Below are positions 10,320 to 14,084 of a stretch of DNA of 56,819 nucleotides, one piece after another. The position numbers and the translations under genes were made by a program. Origin of the DNA: Salinivenus iranica (lineage in GTDB: Bacteria; Bacteroidota; Rhodothermia; Rhodothermales; Salinibacteraceae); assembly GCA_002894665.1 (NCBI GenBank), contig NCRB01000015.1:1-56819 (forward strand), read 5' to 3'. Position 1 is the stretch's first letter. Every line of letters starts with the position of its first letter. Below the pieces are notes generated by a model, which worked only from the letters and a program-made list of their open reading frames with translations, did no database searches and was not told the DNA's origin.

Positions 10320-10826
10320 CTACAATTCCCCCCACTCGGCCTCCAGCAACAGGTCGCCGTTTTGCACGACGGCCGTGCGGAAGTACGAGGGCGCCTCGGA
10401 GGCGTCGGCGTACTGGACGGTGTGGAGGGCGGCGGCCGTATCGGTGTTCTCGCTCACTTCTTCGAGCGCGTCGTCGATGTAGACGGGGATGAGGATCTCG
10501 TCGAGGGCCGACCGGAGCTGATCGAGCAGGTCGGCGTGGGCGGGGGGCGTGTCCGGGGCGCGGCGATCCTCGAGGTCGAGCGTGCGGTCGTGCACGTAAA
10601 TGGCGCAGAGGGGCGTGCCCCGCCCGGTCTCCAGGTCGACCAGGGCTATGGTGTGAAGGGTGTCGGCGGAGGGGTCGACCGGGGCGCCGGTCAGCGCGTA
10701 TCCCTCGCCGGCGGCGCCCGTAAAGCGGACGGCCGGGGCGGTCTCGTCGATTGCGAGGTAGGGGGGCGCGTCGGGAACGGCATCGGTGGCCGTCCAGTCG
10801 CCAGACGTGGAGGCAAAGTACTGCAT
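10320..10826 (-). CDS. Hypothetical protein
   Basis: 168 residues, acidic, with no signal peptide, membrane segment or motif I recognise. A leucine/aspartate-rich helix (HADLLDQLRSALDEIL) lies near residues 97-112. It starts 10 bases after the stop of the aldo/keto reductase gene, and that gene in turn follows the epimerase/hydrolase fusion by 39 bases, so all three are probably one transcript. A role in the same catabolic or detoxification process is possible, but nothing in the sequence defines it. Confidence 0.7.
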   Translation of the reverse strand: MQYFASTSGDWTATDAVPDAPPYLAIDETAPAVRFTGAAGEGYALTGAPVDPSADTLHTIALVDLETGRGTPLCAIYVHDRTLDLEDRRAPDTPPAHADLLDQLRSALDEILIPVYIDDALEEVSENTDTAAALHTVQYADASEAPSYFRTAVVQNGDLLLEAEWGEL

Positions 10827-10836
10827 GGGCAGGGGG

Positions 10837-11838
<1,002 letters not shown>

Positions 11839-11877: not shown

Positions 11878-13044
11878 CTACGAGAGGCCGAAGTGATGGC
11901 GGAGGAGGGGCGCCAGCACGTCGAGCGGGATGGCGGAGAGGGCGTGGGTCGAACCGGGGAGCACGACCCACCGGGCGTCCGGGAGGGAGTCCTGAACGGC
12001 CCGCGTCGCGTCGAGCGGAAAGAGCGGGTCGTCGTCAAGGGCCGCGACCAGGGTGGGGGCGGTGATCTGGGCCAGCGAGTCGAGCGCCCCCTCCGTCGCC
12101 CGGGGAAGGGCGGCCACAAAGGCCCGGAGGTGCGAGAGCAGGCGGTCCGGGGCCTCGTGGCGGGCCGTGAGGGACGCGGCCCGGTCGGGGGCGTTTGCGC
12201 GGAGGGTGTCGAGGTCGAGGCGGGACTGCAGGGCCTCCGACTCGGCCTCCGTCCAGTCGAGGTGGGGACTGAGGAGGGCGAGGCGTCGGACGCGCTCCGG
12301 GGTGCGCTGGGCAAGCCGGAGGGCCACCGAGGCGCCGAGCGAAAACCCGAAGACGTGCGCCGACTCGGTCTCTGCCGCGTCGAGGGCGGCCCGCGCATCG
12401 TCGGCGAAGCGATCGAGCGTGAGGGGCCCGTCGGGCGGCATTGACGAGGCGCCGTGTCCGCTCAAATCGACCCCGACGACGTGCGCCCGGGGCTCCAGGC
12501 GGCGCATAAGCGGCGCAAGGTCGTGGCGCACGCACCCGGCCGCTCCATGAAGACAGAGGATCGTCTCCCGCGCGCGACGGCCGCGCTCGTACACGGCGAG
12601 GGTCCCGTCGCGATGGGCGACCGTGTGCGGGGGCCAGTCCGCCACGGGGGGAGTCTCGCAAAACTCAACGAGGACGCCGTGGGTGGCCTTCGGGTGGACG
12701 AAGCAGATGCGCTTGTCGTCGGCGCCGGGCTGGGGCGCGTCGCTCAGGAGGGGAAGGTCGGCCGCACGGAGGCGGTCCATCGTGGCCTCCAGGTCCTCGA
12801 CCTCGAAGGCCAGGTGGTGAATCCCTTCGCCGCGGGATTCTACAAACCGCGCCACTGGCGACGCCTCTCCCATCGCCTCCAGCATCTCCAACTTGGCGGA
12901 GTCGGCGTTCAAAAAGTGGGTCCGGACGCCCTGGTCGGCGACCGGTTCGGTTTTGTAGGGGCGCTCGCCCAGTAGGTCCTCGAACCGGTCGAGGACGGCC
13001 GCCACCTCGTCGACAGCAATGCCGATGTGTTCGAGTCGAGGCAT
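11878..13044 (-). CDS. Fusion: methylmalonyl-CoA epimerase-like domain plus alpha/beta hydrolase
   Basis: 388 residues with two complete domains. Residues 1-131 match the methylmalonyl-CoA epimerase branch of the vicinal-oxygen-chelate family (LEHIGIAV; GIHHLAF; VLVEFCE), with likely metal ligands His6, His76 or His77, and Glu127. Residues 140-388 are an alpha/beta hydrolase: oxyanion-hole LHGAAG (165-170), nucleophile Ser235 in GFSLGAS, an Asp near 337-339 and His367 in GSTHALS. Both active sites look intact. Epimerases are normally stand-alone proteins of about 140 residues, so the fusion suggests hydrolysis of the epimerised acyl-CoA or of a related ester; that is inference. A metal-dependent lyase or dioxygenase role for the first domain is the main alternative. 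Confidence 0.85.
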   Translation of the reverse strand: MPRLEHIGIAVDEVAAVLDRFEDLLGERPYKTEPVADQGVRTHFLNADSAKLEMLEAMGEASPVARFVESRGEGIHHLAFEVEDLEATMDRLRAADLPLLSDAPQPGADDKRICFVHPKATHGVLVEFCETPPVADWPPHTVAHRDGTLAVYERGRRARETILCLHGAAGCVRHDLAPLMRRLEPRAHVVGVDLSGHGASSMPPDGPLTLDRFADDARAALDAAETESAHVFGFSLGASVALRLAQRTPERVRRLALLSPHLDWTEAESEALQSRLDLDTLRANAPDRAASLTARHEAPDRLLSHLRAFVAALPRATEGALDSLAQITAPTLVAALDDDPLFPLDATRAVQDSLPDARWVVLPGSTHALSAIPLDVLAPLLRHHFGLS

Positions 13045-13112: not shown

Positions 13113-14084
13113 ATGACTACCCAGAAACACACATCCGACCGCGCGGCAATCGACCGGGCCCGGAAGCGGGCCATGGCGGTGAGCCTCGTGGTCTCGTTTG
13201 TGATGCTGGGCGGGAAGGTGGGGGCGGCCTACCTCACCGGCAGTGCCGCCATCCTGTCGGACGCCGCCGAGTCGGTCATCCACCTCTTTGCGACGGGGTT
13301 TGCGGGGTTCAGTCTGTGGTACGCGGCGACCCCGCCGGACCCCGATCACCCCTACGGCCACGGCAAGATTTCGTATTTTGCCTCCGCCGTCGAGGGGACG
13401 CTGATTCTGATTGCGGCCCTCATCATCGGGTGGACGGCGATCCAGGACCTGGTGGCGGGGACCACCCTCCAGCGGATCGACATTGGGCTCTACATGCTGG
13501 GCGGGCTCACGGTGGTGAATCTGGCACTAGGGCAGTACCTGGTTCGGGTGGGACGGCGCACCAACAGCCTCGTCCTGGTCTCGAACGGGCAGCACGTGAT
13601 GACCGACATGTGGACCAGCTTCGGCGTGATTGCCGGGGTCGGCCTCGTGGGCCTTACCGGCATCATGTGGCTCGATCCGCTGGTGGCGCTGCTCGTGGCG
13701 GCCAACATTCTTTGGACCGCCAAGCACCTGCTGCGCCGCTCCGTCTACGGGCTCCTCGACGAGGCCGACCGGGACGCCACGCAGGCGCTTCTCGACGAGC
13801 TTGGGGAGGCCCGGGACGAGGGCACGATTGCCGGGTTTCATCAGGTGCGGCACCGCCGCGCCGGGGACCAGGTGTGGGTCGAGTACCACCTCTTGTTTCC
13901 AGGCGACATTTCGATCCGGGAGGCCCACACCCGGTCCCACGCCGTGGAGGACCGGGTGGATGCCCTCTTCCCGGACGATACCGTCTACGTGACGGCCCAC
14001 CTGGAGCCCCGGCGGCACGACGAGGCGCACCCCGACGGCCACCGCGAGCCGGCCGACCCGCTCCGGCACACCTTCTCCGGATAG
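13113..14084 (+). CDS. Cation diffusion facilitator family transporter
   Basis: 323 residues. It exports divalent metals such as Zn, Fe, Co or Mn from the cytoplasm in exchange for protons. The transmembrane part (about residues 20-215) carries the paired-helix metal motif LSDAAESVIH and, in the later helix, a second site with HVMTDMWTS; HPYGHGK marks the loop after the second helix pair. The C-terminal cytoplasmic metal-binding domain runs from about 215 and includes HQVRHRRAG and HTRSHAVED. The tail is His-rich and acidic. It is divergent from the epimerase/hydrolase cassette with 68 bases between starts. Confidence 0.93.
   Translation: MTTQKHTSDRAAIDRARKRAMAVSLVVSFVMLGGKVGAAYLTGSAAILSDAAESVIHLFATGFAGFSLWYAATPPDPDHPYGHGKISYFASAVEGTLILIAALIIGWTAIQDLVAGTTLQRIDIGLYMLGGLTVVNLALGQYLVRVGRRTNSLVLVSNGQHVMTDMWTSFGVIAGVGLVGLTGIMWLDPLVALLVAANILWTAKHLLRRSVYGLLDEADRDATQALLDELGEARDEGTIAGFHQVRHRRAGDQVWVEYHLLFPGDISIREAHTRSHAVEDRVDALFPDDTVYVTAHLEPRRHDEAHPDGHREPADPLRHTFSG

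Follow-up and report, generated by a model that had tools for sequence, protein, structure and literature searches.

As described so far, methylmalonyl-CoA epimerase consists of one domain, and a covalent joining of parts of the B12-mutase pathway is familiar from IcmF, a mutase fused to its own GTPase chaperone. For the epimerase reaction, a review describes a pair of glutamate bases and a metal-bound carboxylate (PMC8142540). Here, we analyzed a stretch of 56,819 nucleotides from Salinivenus iranica (the window), in which an epimerase of this kind continues within a single reading frame into an alpha/beta hydrolase. Compared with the methylmalonyl-CoA epimerases represented by the model TIGR03081 and the solved chains 6wf6, 3rmu and 1jc4, the protein is alike in covering the whole 129-residue model, in its putative ligands and in the presence of the mutase in the genome. 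In contrast to the epimerases elsewhere in the phylum, i.e., outside the order Rhodothermales, where the open frames that hold the listed matches do not exceed 257 amino acids and mostly stay below 185, it carries an additional hydrolase half of 257 residues. The fusion shares with IcmF the covalent linkage of pathway parts; IcmF, however, joins an enzyme to a known helper, whereas the fusion adds a hydrolase which many relatives lack. The titles and abstract beginnings in the open-access literature yielded no description of such an epimerase-hydrolase fusion.

We consider it quite likely that the protein combines the cell's epimerase with an auxiliary, dispensable hydrolase, that both were fused early and that the hydrolase activity was given up in some lineages. 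The epimerase half would convert (S)- to (R)-methylmalonyl-CoA between the carboxylation of propionyl-CoA and the B12-dependent mutase, and the hydrolase half would contribute an auxiliary and dispensable activity, most likely the hydrolysis of an ester or thioester. Some lineages would have abandoned this activity by losing the cap and the catalytic residues, leaving a shortened tail in an open frame, and in others the hydrolase half would be missing entirely. The two domains genuinely form a pair, which is conserved and probably old. What is new is an architecture made of known folds, accompanied by a clearly graded decay of one domain; the epimerase itself is ordinary.

Architecture of the two-domain protein

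The gene occupies positions 11878-13044 on the minus strand, starts with ATG and encodes 388 amino acids plus a stop; the plus strand over the same positions is interrupted by stops. A methylmalonyl-CoA epimerase domain of the VOC type (residues 1-131; 12652-13044, minus strand) is followed by the alpha/beta hydrolase half (residues 132-388; 11881-12651, minus strand), whose homology to hydrolases, as seen in Pfam, NCBIfam and profile searches, begins at about residue 138-143. Pfam places Glyoxalase_4 (residues 6-115) and Glyoxalase (residues 3-128) in the N-terminal half and Abhydrolase_1 (residues 161-274, E 5.1e-26) and Abhydrolase_6 (residues 162-369) in the C-terminal half. The preliminary description had proposed exactly this pair in one open reading frame, and the frame of 388 residues, free of internal stops, together with the Pfam and NCBIfam matches bears it out: the first half matches the TIGR03081 epimerase model above its cut-off and the second is an alpha/beta hydrolase. 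Its phrase "almost no linker" is also fair, with about 7-12 residues lying between the two homologous regions.

For the hydrolase half, a profile built from the 34 intact copies covers valacyclovir hydrolase (2ock) almost from end to end. Ser235, the predicted nucleophile in the motif GFSLG (12340-12342, minus strand), which is also conserved among the intact orthologues, Asp339 as the predicted catalytic acid (12028-12030, minus strand) and His367 as the predicted catalytic histidine (11944-11946, minus strand) fall on the nucleophile-elbow serine, the late aspartate and the histidine of 2ock. Ser235 and His367 had been named correctly before, and this alignment now supplies Asp339 as the acid. 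His367 is present in all 34 intact members, for which it served as a sorting criterion, and in none of the 35 members with a shrunken hydrolase half (see below). GxSxG, acid and histidine thus ordered, together with the sequence match to the fold, form the signature of serine alpha/beta hydrolases. Two PHB depolymerases and one further hydrolase outscore 2ock, but were matched only in part or in separate pieces.

Beyond the triad, His166 in the motif HGAAG (12547-12549, minus strand), which we take to mark the usual oxyanion-hole strand, the GxSxG motif, Trp264 and His296 are found in 34 of 34 members with a full triad, and His166 is found in 0 of the 35 shrunken ones. Both Trp264 and His296 lie in the presumed cap or lid (about residues 263-325; 12070-12258, minus strand), as placed by analogy to the fold. 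Neither aligns with an identical residue of 2ock, and both are candidates for contacting the substrate. Compared with the capped hydrolases of the valacyclovir hydrolase (BPHL), meta-cleavage hydrolase and PcaD groups, this half is alike in the fold signature, GxSxG, Asp, His and the near full-length alignment to 2ock, but differs by scores far below the NCBIfam cut-offs, by its own Trp264 and His296 and by being joined to an epimerase. The PcaD model TIGR02427, for instance, gave 83.2 bits against a cut-off of 255.85, and the other NCBIfam hydrolase models shown were also far below theirs. As part of the general overlap within the fold, the Pfam Thioesterase model matches 18 of the 34 intact members; among the Pfam and NCBIfam matches shown, there was no model for an acyl-CoA or (S)-methylmalonyl-CoA thioesterase. 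In intact pairs, dN/dS of the hydrolase half ranged from 0.09 to 0.35 (Nei-Gojobori, eight closest pairs per group). Because every one of the 34 full-length members combines the triad, His166 and the two cap residues, the second half is predicted to be a capped serine alpha/beta hydrolase that is active in this organism. An AlphaFold2 model of the fusion, computed from a two-row alignment, had a mean pLDDT of 32.9, and two scans of viral contigs, made to deepen the alignment for structure prediction, found no relatives.

Three states of the hydrolase half and its possible role

Among 114 genomes of the order, 95 have a usable epimerase locus. The 19 others, in which epimerase matches, if any, fall short of about 90 bits, comprise the seven of genus g2 and 12 more (G207, G214, G218, G227, G228, G243, G244, G248, G261, G263, G280 and G291). 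An intact hydrolase half with a full triad occurs at 34 of the 95 loci (379-398 amino acids; 21 from the family of the window and 13 from five further families), a shrunken one with an open tail of about 110-200 residues at 35 (240-330 amino acids) and none at 23 (129-148 amino acids), the protein starts having been picked by script, with a possible error of a few residues in length. Three loci (G217, G219, G258) are unreadable, being cut by a contig end or by unread bases, and are in no class. No protein among the 92 classified has a length between 330 and 379 amino acids. A second, weak epimerase-like VOC gene beside the first epimerase in G277 (L141, 57.8 bits) was left out of the locus set.

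None of the 35 shrunken members has a GxSxG motif, and neither His166 nor His367 is ever retained; 25 of them have no triad residue at all and ten have a single one in the alignment, none having more. In the heart of the presumed cap (residues 281-320), 0-4% of the alignment cells hold a residue, compared with 13-45% at the cap edges (263-280 and 321-325); preservation is best in some core strands and in the C-terminal helix. Profile comparison supports homology of the tails to the hydrolase at the group level for 21 of the 35: a group of seven matches the intact half with a probability of 99.3% (E 1e-20), the cap missing, a group of five matches its C-terminal part (93%, E 3e-7), and nine more are linked through that group of five (98%, E 2.5e-14; 32% in direct comparison). 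Another five form a group with suggestive evidence of homology (13% in direct comparison, 78% by way of a different group), and for the remaining nine tails profile comparison gave no support. By the same dN/dS procedure, the shrunken tails gave 0.12-0.52 in the closest pairs and up to 0.71 in distant, near-saturated ones, and in most cases, but not in all, they are under weaker constraint than the epimerase part.

A leftover hydrolase pseudogene behind the stop of unfused epimerases was considered as well and rejected: at six of the 23 unfused loci (L167, L092, L102, L078, L124 and L129), matches were at chance level, the best having E 0.01.

As far as these sequences tell, the hydrolase half has decayed or is missing in relatives which retain the epimerase half. 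This applies to 58 of the 92 classified members, which suggests that the hydrolase reaction is optional. Such dispensability would also fit a hydrolase whose substrate is unrelated to methylmalonyl-CoA and whose fusion arose by chance and was kept as harmless, all the more as alpha/beta hydrolases are promiscuous and this one resembles many esterase families, with scores far short of the NCBIfam cut-offs in the cases shown. We hold this reading to be possible and tentative, as the catalytic and cap residues have been kept in 34 members from six families, in a single gene with the epimerase.

A structural function is the main alternative and appears slightly less probable still. According to it, the hydrolase half would mainly serve stability or oligomerization of the epimerase and catalysis would be secondary, hence the persistence of dead tails. 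The 35 open tails without catalytic residues, their dN/dS below neutrality in the closest pairs and the preferential preservation of some core strands and of the C-terminal helix are consistent with such a role, which may hold for the shortened tails; the strict conservation of the catalytic features in full-length members and the 23 members without any tail argue against it.

More specific, and in our estimate unlikely, is that the hydrolase half acts as a thioesterase on methylmalonyl-CoA or a related acyl-CoA and thereby as a valve, for overflow or repair, on the very substrate of the epimerase. The fusion of a full-triad hydrolase to the epimerase of the pathway, kept in 34 genomes of six families, the clade-specific cap residues Trp264 and His296 in all of these and the presence of YbfF (3bf7) among the solved relatives speak for it, YbfF having activity on malonyl-CoA. 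On the other hand, many relatives that retain epimerase and mutase dispense with it, the best full-length solved match, valacyclovir hydrolase, is an esterase, and no CoA-binding feature was identified in the hydrolase half. A search of the open-access literature, at the level of titles and abstract beginnings, also returned no relevant enzyme paper on a methylmalonyl-CoA hydrolase or EC 3.1.2.17. To our knowledge, (S)-methylmalonyl-CoA hydrolase is an orphan activity without an assigned gene; it corresponds to EC 3.1.2.17, and on this reading the hydrolase half would be a candidate for it. A bifunctional epimerase/thioesterase removing surplus or stray methylmalonyl-CoA, or else a thioester side product, combined with a stepwise inactivation series in Rhodothermales, is a rather improbable scenario, marginally more so than the valve by itself. 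If true, it would provide a gene for the orphan hydrolase and a series leading from the full enzyme via a cap-less dead domain and a short tail to nothing.

Within the preferred reading of a cellular epimerase with a dispensable companion, our best guess is an auxiliary esterase or thioesterase. Since the hydrolase is fixed onto the epimerase of the pathway, an acyl-CoA thioester of that pathway is a reasonable first guess; as a substrate class, CoA thioesters of the same pathway are the leading, albeit doubtful, proposal, which draws on the fusion and the fold.

The epimerase half and its pathway

The epimerase half scores 128.2 bits against the TIGR03081 model, whose cut-off is 114.95, with residues 3-130 covering the whole model (1-129). 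Its nearest solved chain is 3oa4, followed by chains such as 6wf6 and 3rmu, both deposited as methylmalonyl-CoA epimerase. His6 (13027-13029), Glu53 (12886-12888), His76 (12817-12819) and Glu127 (12664-12666; together spanning 12664-13029, minus strand) are conserved at 95 of 95 epimerase loci of the order and are presumably the metal ligands, a putative role taken from solved epimerases, whose ligand pattern is His, Glu/Gln, His, Glu, and placed by alignment. In its own genome (3.4 Mb in 133 contigs), the fusion is the sole epimerase match above the cut-off, two weaker VOC matches both lying within one frame of 505 amino acids.

One contig of this genome (C79) carries the small subunit of the mutase, its large subunit and MeaB in a row (mutA-mutB-meaB), the latter two above their NCBIfam cut-offs and the small subunit below its own (357.9 vs. 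617.25 bits). There are two full-length genes with a carboxyltransferase domain, neither of which exceeds the cut-off of its best-matching model. From the mutase row, MeaB and the carboxyltransferase genes it follows that a route from propionyl-CoA to succinyl-CoA is likely present, with an uncertain assignment of the carboxylase, and that the fusion would be its epimerase. Another mutase match, within a frame of 1,219 amino acids, looks like IcmF, judging from its length and the position of the match. The preliminary description had suggested looking for a separate epimerase next to the mutase: the mutA-mutB-meaB row was found, but the genome has no second epimerase above the cut-off.

Across the order, mutase and epimerase go together. 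We counted by hand from the match tables the genomes that are at least 95% complete (64 of 114) and scored the mutase as present at a best E below 1e-150 and the epimerase at a best E below 1e-20. On this basis, 58 of the 64 have the mutase, and 57 of these 58 also have the epimerase, the exception being G243; the six mutase-negative genomes all belong to genus g2, and none of them has an epimerase match. Being confined to one genus, this joint loss counts as a single evolutionary event, but a joint absence is what a true epimerase predicts. All seven genomes of g2 (G003, G008, G050, G058, G155, G253, G254) are without the two-subunit mutase and without a convincing epimerase, the one weak match being in G253 (E 9.4e-4), and they retain only a mutase match in an IcmF-like frame of about 1,160 amino acids.

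The first half is hence very probably a genuine methylmalonyl-CoA epimerase, as the preliminary description had considered: the TIGR03081 score above the cut-off, the lack of a second such gene, the mutA-mutB-meaB row and the ligands at 95 of 95 loci all point this way. Its alternative, an enzyme of the glyoxalase type acting on a glyoxalase-type adduct, could appeal to the common superfamily, to the Pfam naming and to the deposition of 3oa4 as "glyoxalase"; the same score, the single copy in a genome with mutase and MeaB, the conserved ligands and the absence together with the mutase in one genus disfavor it, and we reject it as very unlikely.

Several observations on the pathway genes stand apart from this. 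In G293 (L195, 1734-5147) and G275 (L196, 1663-4869), the large subunit of the mutase lies in a single frame of 1,068-1,137 amino acids, with 400-450 residues ahead of it that are possibly a shortened small subunit fused on, and similarly long mutase frames (>900 amino acids) occur in all five matched f46 genomes and in six of seven g136 genomes. For Roseithermus, the epimerase gene is listed as not differentially expressed, and the passages concerned do not mention a fusion (PMC7409140).

Spread, origin and significance of the fusion

A match reaching at least residue 371 of the query was found in 25 of 41 genomes searched, the own genome included (42-100% identity); 24 of these 25 have no internal stop, and in G213 a stop occurs only at the very end. 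Within the genus, 12 of 13 genomes have the fusion. The thirteenth, G207 (83% complete), carries only residues 1-45 in a frame of 80 amino acids inside a contig (L082, reverse strand, 4395-4261), which may reflect either a disrupted gene or an assembly break. Over the order, the full-length fusion with Ser235, Asp339 and His367 is present in 34 genomes of six families at 37-100% identity to the window's protein, itself included, or 37-95% without it. A named relative is the protein of Salinivenus lutea (Rhodothermales, Salinibacteraceae), 95% identical over residues 1-388 and the sole match in a scan of named bacterial and archaeal genomes which is sensitive to close relatives only. Elsewhere in the phylum, a survey of 395 genomes gave no fusion among the matches listed (E to about 6e-32); those from outside the order end by residue 159, and the longest contain internal stops. 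That the joined frame is a frameshift or an error of sequencing or assembly, as the preliminary description had cautioned, has a negligible probability, for no point in its support was found, the frame is uninterrupted and the same fusion with its full triad recurs in 34 genomes, several times on contigs longer than 3 Mb (G147, G195, G206, G210).

Flanking genes were surveyed by tblastn at 92 loci, one contig being counted twice (L012, L142) and many being short or cut by contig ends; these differ from the 92 classified members, some of whose loci are absent from the survey. The commonest neighbor is a divergently transcribed cation-efflux (CDF) gene assigned by Pfam (13113-14084 in the window, plus strand), found at 51 of the 92 loci beside fused, shrunken and unfused epimerases alike, and uvrC follows with 45, some matches possibly belonging to a DnaQ-like gene with a related domain. 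As flanking genes are common to all three states, these are most likely states of one orthologous gene. The downstream aldo/keto reductase (10837-11838, minus strand; Pfam) and the 168-residue gene without a Pfam match (10320-10826, minus strand) had been taken for the rest of the same pathway. This does not hold up: they occur at 11 and nine of the 92 loci, respectively, all in the window's own family, and neither is in range at the 13-kb loci of G204, G205 and G206, which belong to the window's genus and carry the intact fusion. Being poorly conserved in this way, they give no evidence for a shared pathway and were rejected as partners.

States differ within several families, with two intact and one shrunken member in f43, six shrunken and 20 absent in f5, 14 shrunken and one absent in f7, and six intact and one absent in f45. 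In this last member, G259 (L092), the unfused epimerase clusters with those of other phylum members and is without the usual neighbors, and for these reasons it is probably a horizontal replacement of the fused gene from outside. On a tree of the epimerase domain (131 columns; 40 open forks among 98 inner branches), the three states need at least ten changes, but the strongly supported branches alone force only one or two per state, which leaves the number of losses uncertain; one weakly supported group unites an intact (G221), a shrunken (G030) and an absent (G179) member. Such counts on the tree cannot separate gain from loss. We infer loss as the direction, as the shrunken tails keep hydrolase sequence without the catalytic residues, and losses probably occurred in more than one lineage. 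The fusion most likely dates from early in the history of Rhodothermales; the tree does not prove a single early origin. A separate hydrolase gene nearby in other orders of the class was rejected as a source: none was found at 19 of 20 such loci, the remaining one (L177) having one weak and distant hydrolase match (E 2.6e-5), so that no operon precursor of the fusion is seen.

The series of intact, shrunken and missing hydrolase halves in what is most likely one orthologous gene represents a natural experiment, which indicates the residues that matter, hints at an optional reaction and identifies the genomes worth comparing. That a clade keeps the epimerase covalently attached to another enzyme, one that is apparently active, suggests an unrecognized reaction beside propionate breakdown.
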